A stretch of 64,000 bases of DNA from Pseudovibrio axinellae (GTDB taxonomy: Bacteria; Pseudomonadota; Alphaproteobacteria; Rhizobiales; Stappiaceae). The position numbers and the translations under genes were made by a program. The notes below the pieces were generated by a model that saw nothing but the letters and a program-made list of their open reading frames with translations, made no database searches and was not told where the DNA came from. Where the stretch lies: the NCBI RefSeq assembly GCF_900110875.1, contig NZ_FOFM01000006.1:248001-312000 (forward strand), written 5' to 3'. Numbering within the stretch: position 1 is the stretch's first letter; the number at the start of each line of letters is the position of its first letter. Of the stretch, positions 18,115 to 33,901 are shown piece after piece.

Positions 18115-19647
18115 TCACGCTTGCGATCCATCCAACAGGGCAAGAAAACGGCGGCTATCAGTTCGGATCTCTTGCTTCTTGCTGTCGCTCATCTTATCCC
18201 AGGTACGGTAGATCATCGACACTCTGGGATTGCTTCTGAGCTTCTCTTCATTCTGATCCAGAAAATTCCAATAAAGATAGTTGAAGGGACAGGCTTTCTC
18301 ACCTGTCTTCGTAGCGTGCGCATAGACGCAATGCTCACAATAGTTCGACATTTTATTGATGTAGGCACCACTGGCCGCATATGGCTTGGAAGCAAACAGC
18401 CCACCATCTGCAAACAGGATCATTCCATTGACATTAGGCAGCTCTACCCATTCATAAGCATCAGCATAAACCGCGAGATACCATTCACTCACTTCTTTGG
18501 GAGCAAAGCCGGCAAGTAGCGAGAAGTTACCGATCACCATCAGCCGCTGAATGTGATGAGCATAGGCATTTGCCTTTGTTTCAACGATACACTGGTGCAG
18601 ACAATTCATCTGCGTTTCCCCAGTCCAATAAAACTCAGGCAGGTCGCGCGAAGCGCTTAAATAATTAAGCCCTGCATATTCAGGCATGGAATGCCAATAG
18701 ATCCCCCGAATAAACTCTCGCCACCCCACAATCTGCCGGATAAACCCCTCAACAGAGTTCAGCGGAGCAGTGCCGTCAAAATACGCCCGCTCTGCTGCAT
18801 GAACACATTCGAGGGGAAGCAATAGTCCGCAATTGAGGTAGAAGCTGATGTGACTATGAAACATCCAAGGTTCACCCTGAACCATCGCATCCTGATAGTT
18901 CCCAAATTTACTAAGACGCTCAGCAACAAACTGATCCAGCGCCTTGAGCGCATCCTCGCGTGTAACCGCAAGAGAAAACGGTTTCAAGTCACCAAAATGC
19001 TCGGAAAACTGATCCGTCACAAGGGCCAGCACCTCCTCAGTCACCCGGTCTGGTTCAACAGAAAAAGGAGCAGGAACATCCAACCGCTTTGGTGCACTCT
19101 GGCGGTTGTCATGATCATAATTCCACTTTCCACCCAACGGCTTATCACCGTCCATCAAGATATCATGGTTACGCCGCATCTCTCGGTAAAAGTACTCCAA
19201 CCGTAAGCTCTTACGCCCCGACGCCCACTTTTGAAAGCCCTCAGTAGAGCAGAGAAAGCGATCATCTTCACGCAGCTCAACCGGCACACCCAACCGGTCT
19301 TGCCAACTCTCCATCTCATTCAACAGGCGATATTCACCGGGCATTGTCACAATGATTTCAGTGACAGCCTCTGCCTCCTTCAAGCGAAGAACTTCCCCAA
19401 AAAGGCTACCTGTGTTCTCTGGGCAACCGTAGGGCACGTAGACAACGCGGTGTCCCAGAGATCTCAACGCCTCAGCAAAGTGGCGCATCGCTGAAAACAA
19501 AAACGCAATCTTCTTCTTGTGATGCCGGACATAGGTTGCTTCTTCGTTCACCTCAGCCATCAGAATGACATCTTCGCCCAGCTTGACATCGCGCAAGCTG
19601 GAAAGAGGTAAACTCAGCTGATCTCCGAGTACCAGGCGCAAACGCAT
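18115..19647 (-). CDS. phrB: Iron-sulfur bacterial photolyase (FeS-BCP / PhrB type)
   Basis: A 510-residue member of the cryptochrome/photolyase family of the FeS-BCP group, which repairs (6-4) photoproducts with FAD, a lumazine antenna and a [4Fe-4S] cluster. The four cluster cysteines are at C349, C437, C440 and C453, nearly the same positions I recall for Agrobacterium PhrB. The FAD region VGWREFIRGIYW and the MNCLHQC and WVELPNVNGMILFADGG segments are intact. It lies 87 nt after chrR on the same strand and has no RpoE-like promoter of its own, so it is most simply the third gene of rpoE-chrR-phrB. Photolyase is a known RpoE target in Rhodobacter. Confidence 0.93.
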   Translation of the reverse strand: MRLRLVLGDQLSLPLSSLRDVKLGEDVILMAEVNEEATYVRHHKKKIAFLFSAMRHFAEALRSLGHRVVYVPYGCPENTGSLFGEVLRLKEAEAVTEIIVTMPGEYRLLNEMESWQDRLGVPVELREDDRFLCSTEGFQKWASGRKSLRLEYFYREMRRNHDILMDGDKPLGGKWNYDHDNRQSAPKRLDVPAPFSVEPDRVTEEVLALVTDQFSEHFGDLKPFSLAVTREDALKALDQFVAERLSKFGNYQDAMVQGEPWMFHSHISFYLNCGLLLPLECVHAAERAYFDGTAPLNSVEGFIRQIVGWREFIRGIYWHSMPEYAGLNYLSASRDLPEFYWTGETQMNCLHQCIVETKANAYAHHIQRLMVIGNFSLLAGFAPKEVSEWYLAVYADAYEWVELPNVNGMILFADGGLFASKPYAASGAYINKMSNYCEHCVYAHATKTGEKACPFNYLYWNFLDQNEEKLRSNPRVSMIYRTWDKMSDSKKQEIRTDSRRFLALLDGSQA

Positions 19648-19734
19648 CTGCAGTGCTCTCCTCGCAAAAATCCACCAAACTCGCCAAAAGGTAAGGTGGA
19701 AGGAATAACGAAGCCATACCCAGATTTGTCCGCT

Positions 19735-20391
19735 TTAGATCCCAAAGAATGGTTGCAGCAGTTTTGGGAGCAAGCCTTTGAAAGCGAGTGGGGCATCCGT
19801 GACGGCCAGGCAGATGCAATCTTCTTCGGTATCGGCAACTGGTTGATGGTGCACAAGGTCATCTGCCTCTTGAACATCACCAACCTTGTAGCGTCCGGTT
19901 TCGTCACTAAACGAGCCCTTCAATACAAGGGTCATTTCTGATCCATGGTGAGAATGCTCAGGCGTCATGTATCCAGGAGATAACTTCAGCAGACGGGCCT
20001 TTTCTCCCTCGCTGGACTCCACCGGCAGCACAAATTGACGAATACCTGGACCAACCACCTTCCATTTAATGCCGCTGTATCCCTGCCCTAATACACCCCA
20101 AAGATCGCTTGGAACACCCTGTCTGGGTTTTGGTCGACTGATGCAGCTAAGAGAGCGCGAAGGCTTTTCACTCTCAACGCGCAACAAGAGCCTCTCAAAC
20201 AATTCATCAGAAGTATTCAGCTGCTCGCTTGTTTGAAGCAACGCACCTGCAAGCGCCTCGGCTTCTGCCAAACGCCCTTGGCAAGCTTTGCAAAGCTCTA
20301 GATGGCAGGACACGAGCAACGCATGACCTGCTGGCAAGGAGCCTGTCACATAGGCCCATAGAGTTTCATCACTAAGGTGGTGGTTGATCAT
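19735..20391 (-). CDS. chrR: ChrR-family anti-sigma factor
   Basis: A 218-residue zinc anti-sigma factor. The N-terminal ASD domain carries the ZAS-type ligands H5, H30, C34 and C37 (HLELCKAC), which bind zinc and hold RpoE. The C-terminal cupin-like domain has EHSHHGSEMTLVLKGSFSDE, whose His/Glu cluster would bind a second metal and is needed in Rhodobacter for release of RpoE in singlet oxygen. The start codon overlaps the rpoE stop by 4 nt, showing tight coupling with its sigma factor. Confidence 0.94.
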   Translation of the reverse strand: MINHHLSDETLWAYVTGSLPAGHALLVSCHLELCKACQGRLAEAEALAGALLQTSEQLNTSDELFERLLLRVESEKPSRSLSCISRPKPRQGVPSDLWGVLGQGYSGIKWKVVGPGIRQFVLPVESSEGEKARLLKLSPGYMTPEHSHHGSEMTLVLKGSFSDETGRYKVGDVQEADDLVHHQPVADTEEDCICLAVTDAPLAFKGLLPKLLQPFFGI

Positions 20392-20990
20392 GGTTCCACA
20401 CCCTTCAGAAGTTTACGCAACCGCACCAATGCAAGTCTCATTCGTGATTTAACTGTCCCCAGTGGTAGTTGTAGATACTGAGCAATCTTCGAATGACTGG
20501 CGTCCTCATAAAAAGCCAGTTTTATGATTTTCGATTGCTCTGCTGGCAACAGTGGCAATGCTTTTTGCACGCGCTCGCTCAGTTGAGCTTGATGGTGACT
20601 TTCGAACTGCGTCTCATCAACAACAAGTTCTTTTGAAAAGAACCGGTCATCTTTGTAAAGATACCGACGTTCTTTACGAAAATGATCGATGCGCAGATTC
20701 CGTGCGATTGTGTAAATCCACGTTGAAGCTGATGCCTTGCGCTCATCGTACAGCTCAGCTTTTCTCCAGATAATAACAAAGGTTTCCTGAATGAGCTCAT
20801 CAGCAAGCTCCAGACTGGCGCCCCCTTTCAGGAAGTAGTTTTTCAAACGGGGAGCGAAAAAAATAAAGAGTTGGCGGAAGACTTCTTTCGACCGCGTTTT
20901 ACCGAATGATTGCAACAGCACACTTAACTCTTGAGAACTGAGGTAATTCCTACTGCCACCATCATTGCCTTGAAGCTGCATTATTACCAT
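20388..20990 (-). CDS. rpoE: ECF RNA polymerase sigma factor RpoE (singlet-oxygen response)
   Basis: A 200-residue ECF sigma factor. Region 2 reads LADELIQETFVIIWRKAELYDERKASASTWIYTIARNLRIDHFRK, and region 4 reads LPAEQSKIIKLAFYEDASHSKIAQYLQLPLGTVKSRMRLALVRLR, a clear -35-binding helix-turn-helix. Pairing with a ChrR anti-sigma factor and linkage to photolyase and a CFA-like gene identify the ECF group that senses singlet oxygen. I chose ATG at 20988-20990; a GTG five codons upstream and ATG three codons downstream are alternatives. An RpoE-type promoter directly upstream implies autoregulation. Confidence 0.93.
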   Translation of the reverse strand: MVIMQLQGNDGGSRNYLSSQELSVLLQSFGKTRSKEVFRQLFIFFAPRLKNYFLKGGASLELADELIQETFVIIWRKAELYDERKASASTWIYTIARNLRIDHFRKERRYLYKDDRFFSKELVVDETQFESHHQAQLSERVQKALPLLPAEQSKIIKLAFYEDASHSKIAQYLQLPLGTVKSRMRLALVRLRKLLKGVEP

Positions 20991-21023
20991 CGCTCTGCAA
21001 AACACACGGATGTCTCTCAGTCC

Positions 21024-21053
21024 TTTTTACCAAACAGTTTGTCATTTGGATCA
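21024..21053 (-). promoter_or_regulatory. RpoE-type promoter of rpoE-chrR(-phrB)
   Basis: On the minus strand TGATCC is followed after exactly 18 nt by TAAAAA. The same -35 and spacing occur in the divergent promoter at 21071-21100, only 17 nt away, so one intergenic region would fire both units. TGATCC is the RpoE -35 element as I recall it from Rhodobacter sphaeroides. Confidence 0.75.
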
Positions 21054-21070
21054 CTTTTTCCTGCCTAAGG

Positions 21071-21100
21071 TGATCCATTTCTATTCGCCGCTCCTAAAAT
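21071..21100 (+). promoter_or_regulatory. RpoE-type promoter of the FAD oxidoreductase/DUF1365/methyltransferase operon
   Basis: TGATCC, an 18-nt spacer and TAAAAT, placing the transcription start about 20 nt before the ATG at 21127. It mirrors the rpoE promoter on the other strand. Confidence 0.75.
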
Positions 21101-21126
21101 GAGAAACTTCGGATAGGATTAGAGCA

Positions 21127-22467
21127 ATGAAAATCGCAGTGATAGGGAGTGGAATTTCCGGGCTTGCTGCAGCATGGCTGCTTTCTAAGGAGCATCTGGT
21201 CGATATTTATGAGAAAGATGACCGTCTCGGAGGGCATGCAAACACCCAGCAAATTCATATGGATGGAACCAAGGCATCCGTCGATACAGGCTTCATTGTC
21301 TTCAACAAACGTACATACCCAAATCTCACTGCACTCTTCGACTTGCTTGAAGTAGAAACCGTCCCAACGCAAATGTCTTTCTCGGTCTCATTACAGAACG
21401 GAGAAAAAGAATACTCAGGTTCCGGCTTAAAAGGCTTATTTGCCCAAAAATCCAATCTGTTCCGACCTAAATTTCTGCAAATGATCTCGCAGACAATGCA
21501 TTTTTATAAACACGCTTCGAGACATGCAAAAAAGTCAGAATTTCGCGAAACCACCCTTGGCGATTACCTTGTGCAGAAAAACTACTCAGCAACTTTCATT
21601 GATGAGCACCTTCTCCCAATGGGCGCTGCAATCTGGTCAATGCCTCCAAAACAACTGCTGAACTTTCCGTTCCGCACTTTCATCAGCTTTTGCAATAATC
21701 ATGGCCTCCTGCAGCTAAAAGATAGACCGCAATGGCGCACAGTTGCTGGCGGCTCATGTAACTATGTGAGAAAAATTGCCGAAAGAATCTCTGGCAAAAT
21801 TTTCTTAAATACAGCGGTCAAAGATGTTCAGCGCTCCCTTCGTTCCGTCAAAGTTTCAACGAGAACTGGCCAGGAGGCTTCATACGACCATGTGATTTTT
21901 GCATGTCACTCTGATCAGGCACTCGCAATTTTAAACTGCCAAAACAGTGCGTCCGAGGCGGAAACAAAAATACTGGGGTCCATCCGTTATCAGCAAAACA
22001 TCGCCGTCCTTCACCGTGATTTCTCGCTTATGCCGAAACGCAAGGCGGCTTGGTCGGCTTGGAATTTTACAGGCAACCATAATAACAATAACGCGCTCTC
22101 AGTAACCTACTGGATGAACGCTCTTCAGCAGCTCAACATCACCAGAAACGTTTTCGTCACGCTGAACCCAAATCAACAACCAGCCGAGGGTACAATACTC
22201 CGCAGTTTCCAATATGCGCATCCGGTTTTCGATCGCGCTGCGTTGAAAGCTCAAAAGCATGTCTGGCAAATCCAGGGCGAGAACCGCACCTGGTTCTGTG
22301 GCGCGTACCTCGGCTATGGCTTTCACGAGGATGGCTTGCAGGCCGGGTTGGCAGTCGCGGAAGCTCTCGGTGTCGCTCAGCGTGACTGGGTTTGCCAAAA
22401 TCAGAATGGTCGCATCGCCTTACCTGTTGGCTGGCCACTCAGAAGTTATCAGGTGGCTGCGCAATGA
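21127..22467 (+). CDS. FAD-dependent oxidoreductase, amine-oxidase type (candidate fatty-acid desaturase of UfaD type)
   Basis: A 446-residue flavoprotein with an N-terminal Rossmann motif (VIGSGISGLAAAWLLS), the ribose-binding EKDDRLGGHANT, a middle substrate domain (EHLLPMGAAIWSMPP, WRTVAGGSCNYV) and the C-terminal FAD motif (TWFCGAYLGYGFHEDGLQAGLAVAEAL). This subfamily is found with DUF1365 and CFA-like genes next to RpoE-ChrR; as I recall, the Rhodobacter counterparts take part in methylated furan fatty acid synthesis. It would act on membrane phospholipid acyl chains. First gene of a three-gene operon joined by ATGA overlaps and preceded by an RpoE-type promoter. The reaction is inferred from context. 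Confidence 0.9.
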   Translation: MKIAVIGSGISGLAAAWLLSKEHLVDIYEKDDRLGGHANTQQIHMDGTKASVDTGFIVFNKRTYPNLTALFDLLEVETVPTQMSFSVSLQNGEKEYSGSGLKGLFAQKSNLFRPKFLQMISQTMHFYKHASRHAKKSEFRETTLGDYLVQKNYSATFIDEHLLPMGAAIWSMPPKQLLNFPFRTFISFCNNHGLLQLKDRPQWRTVAGGSCNYVRKIAERISGKIFLNTAVKDVQRSLRSVKVSTRTGQEASYDHVIFACHSDQALAILNCQNSASEAETKILGSIRYQQNIAVLHRDFSLMPKRKAAWSAWNFTGNHNNNNALSVTYWMNALQQLNITRNVFVTLNPNQQPAEGTILRSFQYAHPVFDRAALKAQKHVWQIQGENRTWFCGAYLGYGFHEDGLQAGLAVAEALGVAQRDWVCQNQNGRIALPVGWPLRSYQVAAQ

Positions 22468-23321
22468 TTTTGAAAAAACACCGGCAAGAAGAAGACACAC
22501 CGCTTACTATCTACGAGGGCGCGGTGACACACATGCGTCACGGCCGCCTCAAACATAAGCTAAACTACAAAACTGTGTCCTTCACGATCAATATAGATCG
22601 CTTGCCGGAAGTGGATGGCCTCTCTCCGTTCCTATCTGTTAGTCGCTTCAACTTATTCAGTTTTTACCCCGCAGACCATATACAAGGTGGCTATCTCTCT
22701 CTTCGCAGCTTTATAGAAAACACCCTGAAGCAGGCTAGGATAGATACAGTCCCAGAGCGCATCGTTTTACTTGCATTCCCTAGGTTTTTGGGAAAGGTCT
22801 TTAACCCAATCAGTGTGTTTTATTGTTATTCGAAAGGCTGTCTAAAGGCCATCGTTTACCAAGTACGCAACACATTTGGCGACATGCACCACTACGCGGT
22901 TGAAATCTTATCTTCCGAAAATCAAAGCATGACGCATGCCTATCGCCATTCATGCCCCAAGAAACTCCATGTTTCCCCTTTCCTTGAGGTTACAGGTCAC
23001 TACGATTTCGTGGCGCGCCCACCCTCAAATTGTGTTTCTTTGCTCATTCGCCTTACTCAAGACAACCGGCCACAGCTCACCGCACGTTTTCAAGGCACAC
23101 GAAAACAGCCAACCACGTCACGCCTCCTGTTAATCGCCCTGCGGTATTTCCAAAGCTCTGCCAAAGTCCTCGGCCTAATACACTTTGAAGCTCTCAAGCT
23201 TTGGCTCAAAGGCGCAAAGGTCTACAAGCGCCCGCCTCCGCCAGCGTCAATTGTGACAAGCATGAACGCGACAGCTTCTGTGATAAAAGACCCTATCAAA
23301 ACCGCAGGCAAACGCACATGA
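22464..23321 (+). CDS. DUF1365 family protein (candidate UfaO-type)
   Basis: A 285-residue DUF1365 protein, recognised from IYEGAVTHMRHGRLKHKLNYKTVSF near the start and PRFLGKVFNPISVFYCYS...VYQVRNTFGDMHHYAVE in the middle. The biochemistry of the family is poorly known; it nearly always travels with the FAD oxidoreductase and CFA-like methyltransferase seen on either side here. From memory, the Rhodobacter homologue in the RpoE regulon is needed for the oxygen-inserting step of furan fatty acid formation. The ATG overlaps the upstream stop by 4 nt with AGGTGG just before it, and the stop overlaps the next start by 4 nt, so the three genes are translationally coupled. Confidence 0.9.
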   Translation: MILKKHRQEEDTPLTIYEGAVTHMRHGRLKHKLNYKTVSFTINIDRLPEVDGLSPFLSVSRFNLFSFYPADHIQGGYLSLRSFIENTLKQARIDTVPERIVLLAFPRFLGKVFNPISVFYCYSKGCLKAIVYQVRNTFGDMHHYAVEILSSENQSMTHAYRHSCPKKLHVSPFLEVTGHYDFVARPPSNCVSLLIRLTQDNRPQLTARFQGTRKQPTTSRLLLIALRYFQSSAKVLGLIHFEALKLWLKGAKVYKRPPPPASIVTSMNATASVIKDPIKTAGKRT

Positions 23322-24562
23322 GACACAGAGAACGCGCGTCCCTTCATGCTCCGGCCAGCTCGCAAAAAGCAAAGCTGAATTTAAGCTCCAAACTCTGGAA
23401 AGCCTTGCTGGACAAAGTACTCACGAACCTAACTTTGGGTCATTTGTGCATCATTCTGCCCAATGGGCAAGTACTAGCCTATGGCAACCGCACAACCCTC
23501 AGGCCAGCTGTAACCGTAAAAATCCTGCGCGCCCGTTTATTGTGGCGCCTTGTCTCTGGCAACTCTTTGACATTGGCGGAAGCGTACCTTGAAAAGGACT
23601 GGCAGTGTAATAATCTGCGCGCCCTCTTTGACTTGCTGCTTGCCAACAAGCAAATCCTCCACTCAATCAAACATCGTGGCTTCCTCTCAAAAGCTCTGGC
23701 ACGCCTACGCCACTTGGCAAACGCAAATACGCTTGCCGGCAGTAAGCGAAACATCGCGTTTCACTACGATTTAGGGAACGAGTTTTATGGCCACTGGCTA
23801 GATGAAACCATGACGTACTCCTCCGCCTACAAACTTCATAAGGATGAAACGCTTCAGGAGGCTCAACGCAGAAAATACCAGCGCGTTTTGCAACTCACCA
23901 ACACCGTGTCCAACAGTAACATCCTTGAAATCGGCTGCGGCTGGGGCGGTTTTGCAGAACATGCATGCCATTTGGGCAGACACGTTCACGGCATCACATT
24001 GTCACAAGAGCAGCTCAGATATGCCCAAAACCGTCTTCATTCTCAAGAGACAACTGGAGCCGCCTCTTTTGAAATGCGCGACTATCGTGAAACTTTCGGC
24101 CAATACGATGCTATCGTCTCGATTGAGATGATAGAAGCTGTCGGAGAGGAAAACTGGCAAAGCTATTTTCAGCAGCTGAAATCACTCCTCAAACCAGGCG
24201 GAATAGCTGTGATACAGGCAATTTTAATCTCTGATGGAAAATTTCAAGATTATCGACAGAACGTAGATTTCATCCAGCGCTATATCTTTCCTGGTGGTCT
24301 CCTTCCATCCGCGCATGAAATAGAAAAGCAGACAAGACGACAAAATCTGGAGCTAACCACAAAGGAGCTTTTTGGGACGGATTACGAGCAGACGCTCATT
24401 CGTTGGAGGACAGCTTTTTTCAAGAACTGGCCAGCGATCGCAAAACTTGGCTATGATCAACGCTTTAAGCGCATGTGGCATTATTACCTTGCATATTGTG
24501 AAGCAGGTTTTGCAGAAGGCACCATCAATGTCGGGCTCTTCCAAATAAAGAAGCCACTCTAA
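23318..24562 (+). CDS. SAM-dependent fatty acyl methyltransferase, cyclopropane synthase family (candidate UfaM)
   Basis: A 414-residue member of the CFA synthase family. Visible elements are FHYDLGNEFYGHWLDETMTYSSAY (149-171), the SAM motif ILEIGCGWGGFAEHA (202-216), the VSIEMIEAVGEENW helix and FIQRYIFPGGLLPS. Two residues that bind bicarbonate in E. coli CFA synthase appear changed: the Cys of YSCAYW is Ser (YSSAY) and the His of LLHTIG aligns with Gln (VIQAIL), while the Glu and Tyr are kept. That favours a methyl-adding rather than ring-closing enzyme. Third gene of the RpoE-controlled operon. The conserved N-terminus and the 4-nt overlap fix the ATG. Confidence 0.92.
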   Translation: MRHRERASLHAPASSQKAKLNLSSKLWKALLDKVLTNLTLGHLCIILPNGQVLAYGNRTTLRPAVTVKILRARLLWRLVSGNSLTLAEAYLEKDWQCNNLRALFDLLLANKQILHSIKHRGFLSKALARLRHLANANTLAGSKRNIAFHYDLGNEFYGHWLDETMTYSSAYKLHKDETLQEAQRRKYQRVLQLTNTVSNSNILEIGCGWGGFAEHACHLGRHVHGITLSQEQLRYAQNRLHSQETTGAASFEMRDYRETFGQYDAIVSIEMIEAVGEENWQSYFQQLKSLLKPGGIAVIQAILISDGKFQDYRQNVDFIQRYIFPGGLLPSAHEIEKQTRRQNLELTTKELFGTDYEQTLIRWRTAFFKNWPAIAKLGYDQRFKRMWHYYLAYCEAGFAEGTINVGLFQIKKPL

Positions 24563-24599
24563 TCGTCATATATCCACCTTCCAATTGCATCAATGCGGT

Positions 24600-25028
24600 T
24601 TAAATTGACGCACGTGAAGCGATCCACTTAATCATCAATCCTACTATCGGCAGTTTCCGGTAGAAGTGGCGGGAGGCATCCCAATAATCATAATGCGCAC
24701 AGACTTTTGCATCCTTGTCAAAATGCAATTCTGTCAGGCCCCGCACCCCCCATTCACCTAGCAACTTCTGGGTACATGTAAAGTCCCATCGCATAAAGCA
24801 CAGGTCTCTGGACCAGGCCAAATCAAGAATTTTGAATGTCGGCTGCTGCACATCCTCATACATTTTATGAAAGACCTTTTCAAAGCTGTCTCTCCCAACC
24901 ACATCGTTAAACGGGTCAATGAAATGAACATCATCACTGATCAGTGCATGAACCTCGTTTATTCGCTCAGGCGTAACCTTCTCAAAAAAGCATGCATACC
25001 GTCGTGCTGTCGTGTCTCTATCGGTCAC
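24600..25028 (-). CDS. NTF2/SnoaL-like protein
   Basis: A 142-residue single-domain protein with the NTF2-like fold: YACFFEKVTPERINEVHALISDDVHFIDPFNDVVGRDSFEKVF is the classic cone-shaped binding pocket start, followed by RDLCFMRWDFTC and ELHFDKDAKVCAHYDYWDAS. Members bind or transform small hydrophobic ligands. The Rhodobacter RpoE regulon contains a comparable gene beside an SDR gene. The ATG overlaps the SDR stop by 4 nt, so it is the second gene of an SDR-NTF2 pair converging on the methyltransferase operon. Confidence 0.88.
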   Translation of the reverse strand: MTDRDTTARRYACFFEKVTPERINEVHALISDDVHFIDPFNDVVGRDSFEKVFHKMYEDVQQPTFKILDLAWSRDLCFMRWDFTCTQKLLGEWGVRGLTELHFDKDAKVCAHYDYWDASRHFYRKLPIVGLMIKWIASRASI

Positions 25029-25777
25029 CGTTTACTCATCCTTTTCGTAACCCAAAAATAGAGAGCATATGGCAACAACCGCAGACCCTTTAAAATGGCA
25101 GCTAGGCGGAACGGGAAAGCAACCTCGAATTTGCTTCGCTCAAGGCCTCTGTAAATCACTTGAGCCGCCGCCTCAGGAGTGAGAATAAAAGGCATCTCGA
25201 AGGTGTTTTTATCTGTCATTGGCGTTTTCACAAAACCTGGATTTACGAGTGTCAATTTCAGACCTGCACTATCAAAATTTGGCTTCAAAGATTCACAAAG
25301 ATTGATCAGGGCAGCTTTGGTCGGTCCGTAACACCCTGCATTGGGCAAACCACAGTATCCACTTAAGGACGCGAGCACTGCGATATGACCACAACCTTTT
25401 GCCCCCAATGCCGGAAACAAACCTGAGATAACACGCACAGCTCCAAAGTAATTGGTGTCCATTGCCGAAACGCTATTTTCCTCGCTTAAAACATCCACTC
25501 CTCCTGGGTAGTAGATTCCAGAACAGTAAATGGTCAGGTCCGGTAGATCATTATTCTTATTGAACTGCTTGATGGCTGCCAAAACTTGATCCTGACACGT
25601 CACATCAAGTGGAACCACCTTCATCAGCTCAAAGCATGCGGCCATGTCCTGTAGCTTCTGCCGACTGCGAGCGCTGGTAACGACGCGCCACCCAGAACGA
25701 GCATAGAGCCGCGAAAGGCTGGAGCCTATCCCTGAACTCGCCCCAATGATCCAAACAAGCTTCCGACGTTCTGCCAT
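25025..25777 (-). CDS. Short-chain dehydrogenase/reductase (RpoE-linked)
   Basis: A 250-residue classical SDR: cofactor motif GASSGIG (11-17), CSGIYY in place of NNAG, the catalytic Ser in ASLSGY and the YxxxK pair in CYGPTKA, then VNPGFVKTPMT. The C-terminus is hydrophobic (LPYALYFWV) and may touch the membrane. ATG at 25775-25777 was chosen because AGAGG lies 5 nt upstream and an RpoE-like promoter ends about 20 nt before it; the longer reading frame has no support. It shares long identical stretches with the SDR at 33137-33901. Confidence 0.9.
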   Translation of the reverse strand: MAERRKLVWIIGASSGIGSSLSRLYARSGWRVVTSARSRQKLQDMAACFELMKVVPLDVTCQDQVLAAIKQFNKNNDLPDLTIYCSGIYYPGGVDVLSEENSVSAMDTNYFGAVRVISGLFPALGAKGCGHIAVLASLSGYCGLPNAGCYGPTKAALINLCESLKPNFDSAGLKLTLVNPGFVKTPMTDKNTFEMPFILTPEAAAQVIYRGLERSKFEVAFPFRLAAILKGLRLLPYALYFWVTKRMSKR

Positions 25778-25794
25778 AACATCCTCTCTGCTTG

Positions 25795-25824
25795 CTCTTA
25801 CGCCATTAAGAGAGAAGCAGATCA
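25795..25824 (-). promoter_or_regulatory. RpoE-like promoter of the SDR-NTF2 pair
   Basis: On the minus strand TGATCT, an 18-nt spacer and TAAGAG. The -35 differs from the other two sites at the last base; the spacer length is identical. The implied leader is only about 11 nt, just enough for the AGAGG ribosome binding site. Confidence 0.6.
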
Positions 25825-25837
25825 TGTCCATATGCAA

Positions 25838-26860
25838 AAAACTCTCAAAATCCGCTCATTCCTATACTCTTGGCACTTAAAGTGGTCTTGAGTATTGTCG
25901 GTAGAGTATTCAGCACCCTCTATCCGAGTAGTTTTATAAGAACAAACCCTTACTTATCTGTCGCGATTCACCCACTCATTTTGCTCATTCATATGCCTGC
26001 CATTGTCTTTGCTCAATAAGCCCAAAAGTCCTCAGCGAATGCCCAATCACCTCAGCGATTTTCAAATTTTCTCACAATCGAACATTCAAATTGCCGGTTT
26101 CCATGACGCAAACGTCAGGGTCAAACGGGTTGTCCAGCGAAAAATTGTCACTGCAAGATTTGCTCAAGACTTAGGCAAAGAATACACTAAAATCCGTTTT
26201 CTCTTTGATTTACCAAGCTCAAAAAACTCTGGCATTTGTCTCAAAGCAAACAATAGATCACACAATAATTCCGTTTAACTTATTGTTATATATTGGTATT
26301 TTATAAAGACACGTCTCCCAATGATGTCATATAGCTTCACGTCTCTAACGCGAACACGTGTAACGAGGACACCCAAATCTGACCACATCACAAAGCGACG
26401 CAGTTTTGTAGGTAAATTCAGTCTTCCCCCACCACAAGCGTCCGACAAATGAAGAAATTTCCGCAAAATACGATTTAATTAAAGTAATGTTTTATTTCAT
26501 AGCAAAGTCAGCAAATATCTTGCGTGCATAGATCAAACACACACAACCTGAAGAATATAGGTTTACTTTTACGTTCACTCCTATGGCGCTCAATATACTG
26601 GACAACAACACAACTCCATCCAAGTAATATTCATTGACATCTTAAGAGCAAATAACACATCATCTAAATATAAAACTTTAATAATATATACATACCCAAC
26701 TACTTCTCAACACCTATTGATTTTTTACTCGACACGCATGAAAGTATTAATATATTATTTACCATGTTCAACTGCACAAATTACATCCCATAATAAAAAT
26801 AGACTGATCTGGGGTTGTGCCAAAACTTTTATAAACACGCGAAAATCTATAGGGGCTGAG
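25838..26860. other. About 1 kb AT-rich non-coding region upstream of the DSF synthase gene
   Basis: Base composition is clearly richer in A/T than in the surrounding genes, most strongly at 26270-26800. Open frames in it show no known family, no ribosome binding site and no coding-like residue pattern. It probably contains the rpfF control region. Confidence 0.5.
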
Positions 26861-27841
26861 ATGTCTGATCTAATGGGGCATAGATCCAACTTTCCTTCCT
26901 TTGATGGAATTACAAAGCCATCCCTACAGTCAGGGCACAATCCAAACCTTGATGTGTCCACTGTTTCAATTGCACAACAGTTTTCATCGGTTCAGTTAGA
27001 CTGTGTTGATCTTGAATTCGACGAAACAACCAAAGCACTCTGGCTTTACATGAAAAGTGAGGGTCGTCCCTGCTTTACGCCGGAGTTACTTGATGAGCTT
27101 GCGCAATCACAGGCTGTGATGAAGCGCCTCTTCGAAACCTACCAACCAACAGATCCCTGCCCTATCAACTTCAAGGTTGTCGCTTCCCGGATTCCTGACG
27201 TTTACAACCTTGGCGGCGATCTTAACCTCTTTATTGAGCTGATCCGTGAGAACAACCGCGCAAAACTACTGCAATACGCTGTGGCCTGCGTCGACGTAGT
27301 TTACCGGAACGCGGTGTCCTCTGACCTGCCAATTATAACGATTGGTATGATTCAGGGTGATGCTCTGGGTGGTGGCTTCGAAACAGCACTTTCCTGCGAC
27401 GTAATTATCGCTGAGCGCCAGGCAAAGTTCGGCTTACCTGAAGTGCTCTTCAACCTTTTCCCAGGCATGGGTGCTTACAGCTTTTTGTCGCGCATGGTAG
27501 ATGGTCGCGTCGCTGAGAAAATGCTGATGAGTGGGCGTCTCTACTCTGCAGAAGAGCTGCATGAGCTCGGCATCGTGCACGAAGTCGTAGAGCAAGGCGA
27601 AGCGCCTTACGCTGTACAACGATACATTGCCAAGAATGCCAAGAAGCACACCTCTCATTCTGCAATTTACCGAGCGGGCCGCACTGTTCAACCTGTCACA
27701 TATAAAGAACTGATCGACGTGGTCGAGATCTGGGTTGATGCTGCGCTTTCCCTCACAGATCAGGATCTGAAGAAGATGGAGCGCCTGACAAAAGCTCAGG
27801 ATCGCCTATCCGCTCCATCCGCGCAAAAGCAGGCGCTCTAA
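26861..27841 (+). CDS. rpfF: RpfF-type diffusible signal factor (DSF) synthase, crotonase fold
   Basis: A 326-residue crotonase-family enzyme. RpfF makes cis-2-unsaturated fatty acid signals from 3-hydroxyacyl-ACP through dehydratase and thioesterase activity. The segment GDALGGGFETALSCDVIIAE followed by FGLPEVLFNLFPGMGAYSFL is the RpfF signature, with the two catalytic glutamates at E174 and E194, 20 residues apart as in Xanthomonas RpfF (E141/E161). YNLGGDLNLFIELIRENNR also fits. ATG at 26861 has AGGGG 5 nt upstream; a longer reading frame from 26717 lacks a good start. Length exceeds the Xanthomonas enzyme by about 35 residues, mostly at the N-terminus. It converges on the RpfC-type kinase gene with a 14-nt gap. 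Confidence 0.9.
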   Translation: MSDLMGHRSNFPSFDGITKPSLQSGHNPNLDVSTVSIAQQFSSVQLDCVDLEFDETTKALWLYMKSEGRPCFTPELLDELAQSQAVMKRLFETYQPTDPCPINFKVVASRIPDVYNLGGDLNLFIELIRENNRAKLLQYAVACVDVVYRNAVSSDLPIITIGMIQGDALGGGFETALSCDVIIAERQAKFGLPEVLFNLFPGMGAYSFLSRMVDGRVAEKMLMSGRLYSAEELHELGIVHEVVEQGEAPYAVQRYIAKNAKKHTSHSAIYRAGRTVQPVTYKELIDVVEIWVDAALSLTDQDLKKMERLTKAQDRLSAPSAQKQAL

Positions 27842-27856
27842 AAAGCGACTGCCTGC
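27829..27856. terminator. Possible shared hairpin between convergent rpfF and rpfC
   Basis: GCAGGC and GCCTGC pair around an internal GCT/AGC stem and a CTAAAA loop; one strand continues into TAAAAA. It spans the rpfF stop and reaches the rpfC stop. Weak as a terminator because the T-tracts are short. Confidence 0.35.
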
Positions 27857-30459
27857 TAAAAACGATCCAGTGTGCTCAAGCGACTGACAGGGTTAGACCT
27901 TTCTTGCTTGAGCTCCTGCAGGTAGCCTCTGAGGTTTTTGTGGTCGCGCTTGAGCTTGCCTGCCAGTTTACGAAGCATGTCTTCACCCAGAAATTGTATC
28001 TGATGTGAAGGCATGTTTTCCATTTGACCACTCAAATGCACGATGTCCGTGGCACCCAGATTCACGGAGGCAGACCGCAGCGCGTGGGCGCTGGCCCTAA
28101 CTTTTTCACAGTCACGCGCTTCAACAGCCGCTTTAAGATCATGCTGCAACTGTGAGACCTCTTTCAGGTAATCCTCAACCACATTTATTACGAATTCCAG
28201 ACCACCTAAGGATCTTAACTGGGACAGGCTCGCATAGTCGATCCCAGAGGAGACCTCGGATGTAAAGCAAGGATGTTCGGCAATTGATGTGATCTGGCTG
28301 TTCGCAATCTGCTTGCGAGTGATATTCTCATAAACACCACATTCAGTGATCACGTCATCAATCAATGTCAGCAGCCGTTGTGGTTCAATCGGCTTGGTTG
28401 CACACGCATCCGCCCCTGCCTCCTGCGACTTGCTTGCCGAGGAACGACTTGCATCAGCGGTCAACGCAATGATTGGTAACCGGTCCTGTCCAAGCTCTGT
28501 AATCCGTCGCAACTTGATGGTTTCAATACCATTCAGGACAGGCATGTTGATGTCCATGATCGCCAGATCATAAGAGTTCACTTCAAGCTCATCCAAAGCA
28601 AGTTCGCCATTGCCCACCAGCGTACAAGTATGCCCGCCTTTCTGGAGGATTTTCTCAATTACACGCTGATTAGATTTGTTATCTTCAGCGACAAGAATAT
28701 TCAGGCCAATATAACGGCTGAAATAGGCTTGAAGCTCTTCCTTGATCTCCATGCCGCAATGGGCATTTTCAGCACCGGCAGCCCTCAAAGCCCATGCTAC
28801 AGACTGTGTGGAACCTGGCACCTTAATCGAAGAGACAAGGTTAGGCTGCGTTACGCCTGTACTCGCGCTTTCATCGACAGCACCGGAGACAGAGACCAGA
28901 TCGACATTGTGATGCTGTCCCGCAGATTTAAGTGCGTAGTATAAGCTGTCAGAGGCTGTAGCGAGAACATCGTCACCAACAAACAAGACAACCTTGCCAT
29001 CATCGCCGGACGTTTGCTGCCTCAGAGCACTAAACGCCCGCCCAACGGTCTCAAAGCATTCAGCCTCAATACCGCAAGCTTTCAGTGAGGCAACGCACCC
29101 CTCAAGCAAATCCTTACGCTTAGAAACGACGGCAACAGCTCCACCAACCACTTCAAGCTGTGTGGTCTCGTCGCTCACGGCCCGCCCAACGCTCAGCTCA
29201 ATAAAGAAGGTACTGCCCTTCCCAGGCTTACTGCGGACAGAAACCTCACCGCCCATCGCACGCACGACCTCTTGTGCAATGGAAAGACCAAGGCCGGTTC
29301 CGCCAAATCGGTCAACAATGCTCTCATCTGCCTGAGTAAAACGTTCAAAAATGCGAGACTGGGCGTCCTCTGGAATACCAATACCGGTATCTTCCACTTC
29401 CAAGATCAAGCGCACTTCACCACCGGCAACTCCCTTACAAAGCGCGCGAATGGCAACAGATCCCTGCTCTGTAAATTTAACCGCATTGCCTGCAATATTA
29501 AGCAGGACTTCTCGGATATGGCGTGCATCTCCAACCAGCAGCGGCGGCAACTCACTATCCACGAAACGCGAGATGGTCAGGCTTTGACCATGCGCTTGCC
29601 CTTGCACAATCTGAGCAACTTCTTTCAAGATAAAATTGATATCAAAAGTCGTCTGATTGACAATCATCCGTCCACTCTCGATCTGGCTAAAATCAAGAAT
29701 ACCGTTGATCATGGAAAGCAGGGAGTTCCCAGAATATTGGATGGTCTTCGCCATCTCCCGCTGCTCACAATCCAGCTTTGTACCCTGCAGCAACTCGCCC
29801 ATACCATTGATCGCATTCAACGGTGTACGCAACTCGTGACTAACAGCAGTCAAAAACTGTGTCTTGGCTCTATTCGCAGTTTCTGCAGCTTGCTGTGCAG
29901 CTGTCATCGACCTGATGAGTTTACTTGCATAAAGCGGCACAACAACAAGGCAGCCAAGCAGACCTAAACCAAGGATAAATTCCACCTGCCAGTAAGGCGT
30001 TGTAAGCACAACAGCAAACCCACTCACCGAGGCAATGGTGGTAAGCGCAAGGTAATCCAAGCCAAACCGGAAGCCATTCCCGAATATCACCCACAGATAG
30101 ATCGGGAACAGGATTGAAAGGTACTCACCGCCAACATACATGCCGGCAGAGACCGACCCCACATCCAGAAAAATTGCAAAAACGCGGCGTAGCGAATTCA
30201 CTGTTTGAGAATAAAGCAGATGGGCAAGAAGGAAGAACGATCCAACCGCAAACGTGGACATAATGAGCGTGGTTTGAAAGTTCTCGTAGGAACCAAAGGT
30301 AATGTTTGAAGCAAGATAGGGCGTGATGAGCAAGGTGAAAGCAAAGCGGTTTAAAGACATTTCGCCTTCACCACCACCAAGTTGGATGACTTGCTTATAA
30401 AGAGCCTTTATCTCGGCACATGGGAGCACTGGCAGCTTTGAATTTCGGTTATCATTCAT
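27856..30459 (-). CDS. rpfC: RpfC-type hybrid sensor histidine kinase (DSF receptor candidate)
   Basis: An 867-residue membrane kinase. Residues of about 35-185 form about five to six membrane helices; the stretch VFAIFLDVGSVSAG...LWVIFGNGFRFGLDYL and LTTPYWQVEFILGLGLLGCLVVVPLYASKLIRSM closely follow the sensor region of Xanthomonas RpfC. Then come HisKA with VSHELRTPLN (H208), HATPase (NAVKFT, DTGIGIP, GGTGLGLS), a degenerate receiver-like stretch (about 435-565), a full receiver (about 585-705, D636, K689) and an Hpt domain with H792 in SAHALRSASVNLGA. This HK-REC-Hpt phosphorelay matches RpfC. In Xanthomonas RpfC senses DSF and also restrains RpfF. It overlaps the upstream regulator gene by 4 nt. 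Confidence 0.9.
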   Translation of the reverse strand: MNDNRNSKLPVLPCAEIKALYKQVIQLGGGEGEMSLNRFAFTLLITPYLASNITFGSYENFQTTLIMSTFAVGSFFLLAHLLYSQTVNSLRRVFAIFLDVGSVSAGMYVGGEYLSILFPIYLWVIFGNGFRFGLDYLALTTIASVSGFAVVLTTPYWQVEFILGLGLLGCLVVVPLYASKLIRSMTAAQQAAETANRAKTQFLTAVSHELRTPLNAINGMGELLQGTKLDCEQREMAKTIQYSGNSLLSMINGILDFSQIESGRMIVNQTTFDINFILKEVAQIVQGQAHGQSLTISRFVDSELPPLLVGDARHIREVLLNIAGNAVKFTEQGSVAIRALCKGVAGGEVRLILEVEDTGIGIPEDAQSRIFERFTQADESIVDRFGGTGLGLSIAQEVVRAMGGEVSVRSKPGKGSTFFIELSVGRAVSDETTQLEVVGGAVAVVSKRKDLLEGCVASLKACGIEAECFETVGRAFSALRQQTSGDDGKVVLFVGDDVLATASDSLYYALKSAGQHHNVDLVSVSGAVDESASTGVTQPNLVSSIKVPGSTQSVAWALRAAGAENAHCGMEIKEELQAYFSRYIGLNILVAEDNKSNQRVIEKILQKGGHTCTLVGNGELALDELEVNSYDLAIMDINMPVLNGIETIKLRRITELGQDRLPIIALTADASRSSASKSQEAGADACATKPIEPQRLLTLIDDVITECGVYENITRKQIANSQITSIAEHPCFTSEVSSGIDYASLSQLRSLGGLEFVINVVEDYLKEVSQLQHDLKAAVEARDCEKVRASAHALRSASVNLGATDIVHLSGQMENMPSHQIQFLGEDMLRKLAGKLKRDHKNLRGYLQELKQERSNPVSRLSTLDRF

Positions 30460-32642
30460 AGCTCAATTTCCGCCCCAACCAGTACCTTTTGCGGGTATTG
30501 CCCCTGCGCCTTCAAAGACTGCTGTTCCAACAGTAATGAAAACTCTTGTGCAGGCACGGGTTTGCCAAACAGGTACCCTTGCGCCAACTCGCATCCAGCA
30601 TCTTTGAGGTAATCAACTTGCTCACGCGTCTCTACGCCCTCCGCAATAATTGACAAGTCAAGGCTGGCACCCAGGCCAACGATTGCTTTGATGATCACCG
30701 TGCTGTTCGGATCGGTCATCATATCTCGAGTAAAGCACCTATCGATCTTCAGGCAATCAACGGAGTACCTGCTCAGATAAGCCAGAGAGGAGTAACCGGT
30801 GCCGAAATCATCAATCGAGACAGCAATTCCCATCTCGCGAATGACACGTAAATCTCGTACGGTCGCCTCGGACCCGTGCAAGACGATGTTTTCAGTGATC
30901 TCAATCTCCAGCTTTTCTGGAGGCAAGCTGCAAGAAACCAGCGCATCTTTCAAAAGCTGCGGTACATCTTGTTTTCTAAACTGCGTCGGGGAAATATTGA
31001 TTGCAATACGAGGCGTATCCAGCCCCATATCCATCCACTTCTTCGCCTGTTTACATGCTGCAAAGATCACCCACTCCCCAATCGGAAGGATCAGGCCAAC
31101 CTCTTCCGCTGTGCCCAAGAACACGTTTGGCGCCACCACACCATAATCCGGTCGATTCCATCGCAACAGGGCTTCAGCCCCAACAATTTCGTTGTTCTCC
31201 AGGTTGATCTGAGGCTGATAAAACAGCTCAAGCTGATCCTGCTCAATTGCATTGCGCAGCTCGTTTTCCAGCGCGATCGTTTCTTTTACGTGGTGATCCA
31301 TCTTTGAAGAAAACAGATGGAACGTATTTCCGCCATCTGCTTTGGATTGGTACATGGCCATATCAGCACAACGAAGCAGCTCTTCACTGTTCAGACCATC
31401 CTCCGGATACTTAGTAATACCCACACTGGCGCTGGTCTGAAGTTCCCGCCCGCTGATCAAGAAAGTCTCCTCAACCACACTAACAAGATGCTGAGCAAAG
31501 CGAAGGGCCTCTTCAGAGCTTTTCAAGTCTGTCTGTAGAATGGCAAATTCATCGCCGCCCAGTCGCGCCACGAGGTCAGAGCCATCAACACAACGCAACA
31601 ACCGCTCTGCAAGCACCTCCAAAAGCCGATCGCCGATGCGATGCCCCAAAGCATCATTGATGGACTTAAACCGATCTAAGTCCAGGAAATGAAGCGCAAA
31701 ACCACGCCCACTGTTGCGGCACTGGAAGATTTCTTCATCTATGCGGTCGCCAAGCATGGTCCTGTTTGGCAGGCCCGTCAGCGCATCATGATGCGCGATG
31801 TGCAGCAGATGAGCTTCAGCGCGTTTGCGATCTGAGATGTCCGTCGCTGTTGTTACCACATGCGTGGTGTTTCCAGCAGCATCCAGCAGGGGGCTCTTGG
31901 TGACGATGAAATGGAAGACATCGCCTGCATGGTTTCGCTGTTCAATTTCATATGGGGGCAACGCCCTCCCGGTAATGAACACCTTTCGATCCAGTCGGCG
32001 GTTACTCTCTTGAGTAAACTTGTCGAACTTCCCATAGGCATCCTGACCGATGAGTTCTGCAGTCGTCGAATTCAGAAAATTTGCCCATGCCGCATTGGTG
32101 AACGCGCATAATCCATCCAGGGTACAGGTCATGATCATGGCTGGGACGCTGTCAATAACTTGCGCCAGCCGCTCACGAGAATCGCGCAGTGCTTCCTTAC
32201 GTTGCAGCTCAACGTTGACCAGCTCCTGTTCAAGGAACCGCGCATGTCGCTTAACCGCATTCTGCTCTTCGCGCAGTGCAAGCAGATTTCTCGCCCTGCT
32301 CACAAACTCATTGTGATCGACCGGGCTTTGGAGAAAGTCCGTCGCGCCAGCTTCCAACGCCCTAATACGAAATGACCTATCAGTGAAAACAGTGATGACA
32401 ACAACAGGCACGTCACTGCAATGGTCGAGCGCGCGCACCTTCTGCGTCAACTCAGCCCCGTCCATCTCTGGCATACTGTAGTCTGTGATAATCAGGTCGG
32501 GAACAGTGCTCTCCATAAATGCGAGAGCATCAAACGGCGATGCAAAACACTGCACCTTGACAGAGGCACCTACAGCAAGTGCAAGCTTTTCAAAAATACT
32601 TCTATTAATTGCCCTGTCGTCGACAATAACGATTGTTGTCAT
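30456..32642 (-). CDS. Response regulator REC-PAS-GGDEF-EAL (c-di-GMP turnover), RpfC partner
   Basis: A 728-residue four-domain protein: receiver (1-125, D8/D9 and phospho-acceptor D54), coiled linker, PAS (about 158-275), GGDEF (about 285-445, intact GGDEF at 362-366) and EAL (about 460-710, EALLRW at 490-495, DDFGTGYSSL present). It could make and break c-di-GMP. The receiver has Ser106 (LQSPVD) where a Lys-Pro is usual, and the product-inhibition site before GGDEF reads DGSD rather than RxxD. In Xanthomonas the RpfC partner is the HD-GYP protein RpfG; here this protein takes that place, joined to rpfC by an ATGA overlap. PAS-GGDEF-EAL is also the layout of the Burkholderia DSF receptor RpfR. 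ATG at 32640-32642 gives MTTIVIVDD. Confidence 0.92.
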   Translation of the reverse strand: MTTIVIVDDRAINRSIFEKLALAVGASVKVQCFASPFDALAFMESTVPDLIITDYSMPEMDGAELTQKVRALDHCSDVPVVVITVFTDRSFRIRALEAGATDFLQSPVDHNEFVSRARNLLALREEQNAVKRHARFLEQELVNVELQRKEALRDSRERLAQVIDSVPAMIMTCTLDGLCAFTNAAWANFLNSTTAELIGQDAYGKFDKFTQESNRRLDRKVFITGRALPPYEIEQRNHAGDVFHFIVTKSPLLDAAGNTTHVVTTATDISDRKRAEAHLLHIAHHDALTGLPNRTMLGDRIDEEIFQCRNSGRGFALHFLDLDRFKSINDALGHRIGDRLLEVLAERLLRCVDGSDLVARLGGDEFAILQTDLKSSEEALRFAQHLVSVVEETFLISGRELQTSASVGITKYPEDGLNSEELLRCADMAMYQSKADGGNTFHLFSSKMDHHVKETIALENELRNAIEQDQLELFYQPQINLENNEIVGAEALLRWNRPDYGVVAPNVFLGTAEEVGLILPIGEWVIFAACKQAKKWMDMGLDTPRIAINISPTQFRKQDVPQLLKDALVSCSLPPEKLEIEITENIVLHGSEATVRDLRVIREMGIAVSIDDFGTGYSSLAYLSRYSVDCLKIDRCFTRDMMTDPNSTVIIKAIVGLGASLDLSIIAEGVETREQVDYLKDAGCELAQGYLFGKPVPAQEFSLLLEQQSLKAQGQYPQKVLVGAEIEL

Positions 32643-33136: not shown

Positions 33137-33901
33137 CTATGAAGGTCTTTGTTTTCCTGTCGTAAGGCCGACCAGTTTAAAGTAGGCCCAATAAGGAACA
33201 AATCTCATCAGCTTCAGCGCAACAGCCAACGGCAATGGGAATGTGGTTTCAAAGCCTTTACGAGCCAGCCCTTTCTTGATGCGTTTTGCAGCGCTCTCCG
33301 CGCTGATAATAAACGGCATCGGCACCTTACTGTCCTTGGTCATATCCGTTTTCACAAAGCCTGGATTTATCACCGACAGCGTAAGATTAGCCTTGTCAAA
33401 GCTCGGTTTCAGTGACTCGCAAAGGTTAATCAGTGCTGCTTTGGTAGGCCCATAACTAGCCGCAAAGGGCAACCCACCATAGCCGCTAAGCGAAGAGATG
33501 ATAGCCACTTGCCCCGAGCCACGCTTCTTTAGCAATGGAAACAGGTTATGAATGGTCCGAACCGCACCAAAGTAGTTCGTATCCATCGCATTGACACATA
33601 TCTCATCCGTCAATGTAGAAAAGCCTCCTATTGGAAACACACCGGCGCAATAGAGTGTGAGGTCTGGAAGGCAGGCATCAGCATCAAGTTTTTGGACAGC
33701 CAGCGCCACTTCATCCTTGTCGGTCACATCAAGACGCAGCGCTCTTATAGCATCAGAAGTCTCCTCAAGTGCTGCAAGTCGCTCAGCTCGTCGGCCGCTT
33801 GCAATCACCTGCCAGCCGTCTGCGGCATAGATCTTACAAAGCTCCTCTCCAATTCCTGAAGTTGCTCCAATAATCCAGATAATCTTATCCTGAGATGTCA
33901 T
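33137..33901 (-). CDS. Short-chain dehydrogenase/reductase, paralogue of the RpoE-linked SDR
   Basis: A 254-residue classical SDR with GATSGIG, catalytic Ser in SSLSGYGG and YxxxK as SYGPTKAALINLCESLKP, then VINPGFVKTDMT. It shares blocks such as YGPTKAALINLCESLKP and AMDTNYFGAVR with the SDR at 25025-25777, so the two are close paralogues flanking the DSF locus. GGGGGAG lies 5 nt before the ATG. Unlike its paralogue, I see no TGATCC-type promoter upstream. The substrate is unknown; a lipid or carbonyl compound is possible from the family alone. Confidence 0.9.
   Translation of the reverse strand: MTSQDKIIWIIGATSGIGEELCKIYAADGWQVIASGRRAERLAALEETSDAIRALRLDVTDKDEVALAVQKLDADACLPDLTLYCAGVFPIGGFSTLTDEICVNAMDTNYFGAVRTIHNLFPLLKKRGSGQVAIISSLSGYGGLPFAASYGPTKAALINLCESLKPSFDKANLTLSVINPGFVKTDMTKDSKVPMPFIISAESAAKRIKKGLARKGFETTFPLPLAVALKLMRFVPYWAYFKLVGLTTGKQRPS

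Follow-up and report, generated by a model that had tools for sequence, protein, structure and literature searches.

The rpf cluster of Pseudovibrio axinellae

The window, a 64,000-nucleotide stretch of the P. axinellae genome (contig NZ_FOFM01000006.1, positions 248,001 to 312,000), carries three adjoining genes in the order rpfF-><-rpfC<-regulator. The regulator gene (30456..32642, minus strand) is an open reading frame of 728 amino acids from its ATG, and its receiver (REC), PAS, GGDEF and EAL domains all score above the Pfam cut-offs; it is treated here as an RpfG-type gene with a swapped output. The regulator stop and the start of the rpfC-like hybrid kinase gene (27856..30459, minus strand) overlap by 4 nt, ATGA (30456..30459, minus strand). 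The domain content and the overlap had both been given in a preliminary description of this DNA, and both are borne out. Convergent with rpfC lies an rpfF-like gene for a crotonase-fold synthase (about 26860..27841, start uncertain, plus strand).

The RpfF-like protein has Xanthomonas RpfF as its best solved relative (3m6m, E 7e-58); the two catalytic glutamates, in GGGFE and GLPE, are both present, and the score with the NCBIfam RpfF equivalog model, 244 bits, is below the cut-off of 550. No second good RpfF match was found in the P. axinellae genome, where rpfF is single-copy. The RpfC-like kinase contains HisKA, HATPase_c, REC and Hpt domains above the Pfam cut-offs, preceded by about five hydrophobic segments (from hydropathy only), which agree with the five membrane segments of Xanthomonas RpfC. 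Its phospho-acceptors H208 (HisKA), D636 (REC) and H792 (Hpt) are invariant in 76 RpfC homologues. In Xanthomonas RpfC, residues Arg15, Asp17, Ser18, Glu19 and Gln22 are essential for DSF sensing (PMC5391125). Most of these contacts differ in the window RpfC, which keeps only the Glu; some other alphaproteobacterial RpfCs retain R-P-D-x-E-H. With four of the five residues changed, the ligand of the window RpfC may differ from DSF.

The RpfC-like kinases of five other loci (L102, L103, L104, L112 and L126) gave no Hpt match with the window Hpt as query; the domain may be divergent, cut or absent. At Inquilinus-type loci (L066, 4145-5053; L075; L083), one or two extra short genes lie between rpfC and the regulator and encode an RpfC-like membrane part and HisKA without an ATPase domain, reminiscent of rpfH. 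The L083 contig is labelled Mycobacterium sp. KBS0706 and bears an Inquilinus-like rpf cluster; the record is probably mislabelled or contaminated.

The preliminary description held that the HD-GYP protein of RpfC-RpfG systems had been replaced, and the place beside rpfC is indeed taken by the REC-PAS-GGDEF-EAL gene. An independent HD-GYP partner elsewhere, which it had named as counter-evidence, was looked for, and HD-GYP (PF13487) had no match in the P. axinellae genome (99.9% complete). None was found in 15 other Pseudovibrio genomes either; most other sampled genera of the same family do have HD-GYP.

Two similar short-chain dehydrogenase genes (25025-25837 and 33137-33901) lie one on each side of the rpf cluster. 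The region 18115-25837, for part of which Pfam was run, holds short-chain dehydrogenase, SnoaL-like, CMAS, DUF1365, amine-oxidase, ECF-sigma-like, cupin anti-sigma-like and photolyase-like genes, a group which we take to resemble the ChrR-sigmaE singlet-oxygen cluster.

Receiver and PAS domains of the regulator

The receiver (32280..32642, minus strand; Pfam residues 4-117) keeps D8, D9, D54 and T84 and has Ser106 in place of the usual Lys. Its kinship was examined with the receiver and following helix of an HD-GYP-bearing RpfG (L112, checked with Pfam) whose gene adjoins rpfC and rpfF in an assembly from a gammaproteobacterium. In the P. axinellae genome this query matched the regulator's receiver at 134 bits and 46% identity, and the runner-up, the best of 36 other matches, reached 49 bits. 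In a receiver tree the REC-PAS set formed a single clade, with SH-aLRT support of 98, adjacent to ten RpfC-linked RpfGs, and other REC-HD-GYP proteins fell outside both groups; the tree is built on few columns, and the RpfGs' grouping among themselves is weak (support 38). By sequence, the receiver is akin to that of RpfG. The score and the clade together mean that the gene is best read as an RpfG with an exchanged output, and the recruitment of an unrelated regulator beside rpfC was set aside on the same receiver matches and tree position.

In CheY-type receivers a conserved Lys couples phosphorylation to conformational change. At the equivalent position 106, the REC-PAS receivers of the first locus set have Ser in 66 of 71, Thr in 4 and Ala in 1 (a count that leaves out the L112 row), and those of a class-wide sample have Ser in 14 of 15 and Thr in the other, two of the 15 being repeat contigs of the first set. 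RpfC-linked RpfGs have Lys (9/10) or Arg (1/10), and the RpfC receivers have Lys in 76 of 76. With Ser at the switch position, phosphorylation may act differently or weakly in the regulator. This near-uniform Ser or Thr would also suit a receiver that works without phosphate, docking RpfC or RpfF and placing the enzyme under protein-contact control, with the Ser-for-Lys exchange marking a changed switch; there is a precedent for docking within the DSF system, as the RpfC receiver of Xanthomonas binds RpfF (PMC13220807). However, D8, D9, D54 and T84 are present in every REC-PAS receiver with letters at those positions, as expected if phosphorylation is kept, and the Hpt His of RpfC is invariant, which makes a phosphate-free receiver unlikely.

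The PAS domain (31821..32153, minus strand; Pfam residues 164-274) bears on the proposal of the preliminary description that the locus joins the RpfC route to that of RpfR, the receptor of Burkholderia and Cronobacter. RpfR contacts BDSF through S169, N172, Y183, R187 and N202, and its FI domain binds RpfF (PMC6361424). It resembles the window regulator in its PAS-GGDEF-EAL order and in having rpfF beside its gene, and these features would fit a dual receptor with direct binding of a DSF-family fatty acid at the PAS and phosphorelay control added by the receiver. The predicted PAS model is confident (pLDDT 94.6), and the range of folds it matches in VIA-align includes the RpfR PAS (Z 12.7 and 12.6, ranks 30 and 36; BDSF-bound 6dgj, 12.6). 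These scores are tied with those of FixL (heme) and LOV (flavin) PAS domains, so that RpfR is not singled out, and phmmer with the regulator's PAS against PDB sequences gave chance-level matches only. The RpfR BDSF-contact residues are not kept. Two Burkholderia RpfRs (L133, L134) have four of the five, with Phe at position 183; the regulator reads N, L, L, I and T at the five positions in turn, in an alignment of divergent domains that is uncertain in places, and among 47 relatives the R187 position is mostly Glu and the N202 position mostly Thr. The FI domain is absent, the N terminus being REC, and the N-terminal halves match at E 0.34 only. The GGDEF-EAL half is no closer to RpfR (317 bits) than to GGDEF-EAL proteins of Methylobacterium and Sphingomonas (347 and 329 bits), and the same PAS family also occurs ahead of histidine-kinase outputs. 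That the PAS and enzyme half are kin to RpfR was rejected on the contacts, the missing FI domain and the GGDEF-EAL scores; the RpfR half of the earlier proposal falls with it, and direct sensing of a DSF-family fatty acid by the PAS is rather improbable, somewhat more so than the docking receiver. The PAS probably acts as a structural relay or as a sensor of something other than RpfR-style BDSF.

The GGDEF-EAL half and the proposed relay

The GGDEF domain (31326..31796, minus strand; residues 283-439) has an intact GGDEF motif and lacks the RxxD inhibitory site, and the EAL phosphodiesterase domain (30558..31265, minus strand; residues 460-695) has all nine of the catalytic residues checked. 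This residue reading upholds the earlier statement that both motifs are intact. In the 59 relatives the nine EAL residues are invariant (59/59), whereas the GGDEF motif is exact in 53, with SGDEF, GGDQF, GADEF and GADDF among the other six; an RxxD site is present in 24 of the 59.

Because EAL never varies and GGDEF decays in some relatives, phosphodiesterase is favoured as the constrained activity, and these residue patterns lead us to lean towards a net output like that of RpfG, with the EAL domain hydrolysing more c-di-GMP. Net synthesis is possible given the intact GGDEF motif of the window protein. A main output by the diguanylate cyclase, with the signal raising c-di-GMP, would fit the exact motif here and in most relatives, the missing inhibitory site, and Rup4959 of Pseudomonas putida, which has the same REC-PAS-GGDEF-EAL architecture and makes c-di-GMP according to PMC4951495, in a passage that does not link it to RpfC or RpfF. 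Against this stand the invariance of the EAL residues and the six departures from GGDEF, and both of the core DSF routes that have been described, RpfC-RpfG and RpfR, lower c-di-GMP (PMC4504480). A cyclase output is doubtful, though it is the strongest of the alternatives to net hydrolysis and phosphorelay considered here.

The regulator is probably the RpfC partner in a DSF-type system in which the receiver of RpfG has been kept, the output exchanged and the relay alters c-di-GMP. The RpfF-like enzyme would make a fatty-acid signal, and the membrane domain of RpfC would sense it, upon which the kinase would autophosphorylate. Phosphate could then pass along the acceptors present, from H208 to D636, to H792 of Hpt and on to D54 of the regulator's receiver. 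Through a long helix to the PAS, the receiver would reorganise the GGDEF-EAL dimer. In the full-length model of the regulator (pLDDT 88.8, pTM 0.47), residues 110-164 form an unbroken helix that links the receiver to the PAS; with this pTM, the placement of the domains is unreliable.

Distribution and relation to known DSF systems

A set of 94 non-redundant rpfF loci was assembled from the window, relatives in its family and order, and named genome contigs; it leans to near relatives, as the query was the window's own RpfF. REC-PAS-GGDEF-EAL lies beside rpfC in 59 of the 94, from many families. REC-PAS-histidine kinase occurs in 8/94, REC-PAS only in 4/94 and REC-HD-GYP in 1/94, and the remaining loci have no such gene or are broken off by contig ends. 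Counted as REC-PAS only is the locus of a Stappiaceae genome (L047, G030) whose rpf cluster is interrupted by several stop codons and shifts of frame. The recurrence of the same neighbourhood in many alphaproteobacterial families argues that the adjacency of regulator, rpfC and rpfF is not due to chance. There are many receivers and kinases in the genome, and the regulator might serve another kinase and lie beside rpfC by accident; the conserved linkage, the 4-nt overlap and the RpfG-type receiver make this very improbable.

An even sample of the class comprised 289 genomes, 19 of them with rpfF. Here, 12 of 14 regulators beside rpfC and rpfF were REC-PAS-histidine kinases and two, those of the window and L149, were REC-PAS-GGDEF-EAL. 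Among the best 14 matches to the PAS profile in the 289 genomes, 10 lay within 5 kb of rpfF. Pfam found HisKA and HATPase_c in example REC-PAS-histidine kinases, HisKA_2 in that of Skermanella (L103), whose regulator lies on the opposite side of rpfF, and REC-PAS without further output in Crenalkalicoccus. On a REC-PAS tree the output labels needed three changes, and holding the GGDEF-EAL and REC-PAS-only rows together was not rejected (p-AU 0.85); the last tree excludes one frame-broken locus and the rows whose branches were very long. The pairing of RpfC and regulator that the preliminary description had pointed out is present here, but the description missed that it is common in Alphaproteobacteria and often has a histidine-kinase output. 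The balance is even on whether the alphaproteobacterial RpfC relay is a receiver-PAS adaptor with a Lys-to-Ser switch and exchangeable outputs, namely histidine kinase, GGDEF-EAL or none. A histidine-kinase output, if true, would be a case of a kinase relaying to a kinase. A scan of IMG/VR with the regulator found no relative.

Like the Xanthomonas RpfF-RpfC-RpfG system (PMC4504480), the window has convergent rpfF and rpfC, the RpfC architecture with Hpt, and an RpfG-type receiver gene adjoining rpfC; it differs in having PAS-GGDEF-EAL for HD-GYP and Ser for the receiver Lys. RpfR, for its part, has FI where the window regulator has REC, different residues at the BDSF contacts and an enzyme half of no special kinship, and lacks the RpfC alongside. 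PA1396/PA1397 of Pseudomonas aeruginosa and BCAM0227/BCAM0228 of Burkholderia are likewise DSF-sensing kinases with a non-HD-GYP output (PMC4504480), but their outputs are DNA-binding regulators and not c-di-GMP enzymes or kinases. A search of literature mostly from outside subscription journals found nothing relevant on DSF systems in Pseudovibrio or other Alphaproteobacteria, and the Gluconacetobacter Pal5 genome paper makes no mention of rpf. The window system is a widespread alphaproteobacterial variant of RpfC-RpfG, of which no description was found in the literature searched. This third DSF arrangement, RpfC and an RpfG-type receiver with other outputs, is common among Alphaproteobacteria, with examples from marine, soil and acetic-acid genera. 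It opens to experiment both the way in which a single type of receiver drives unrelated outputs and the effect of Ser at the Lys position.

Another rpfF arrangement, with a GGDEF-EAL gene beside rpfF and no rpfC, was seen in Methylobacterium (L135, 8862-11192) and Sphingomonas (L136, 8892-11006), both of whose GGDEF-EAL proteins have a hydrophobic N terminus, and in two genomes of the window's order (L049, L050); in three of these four loci the genes are convergent.
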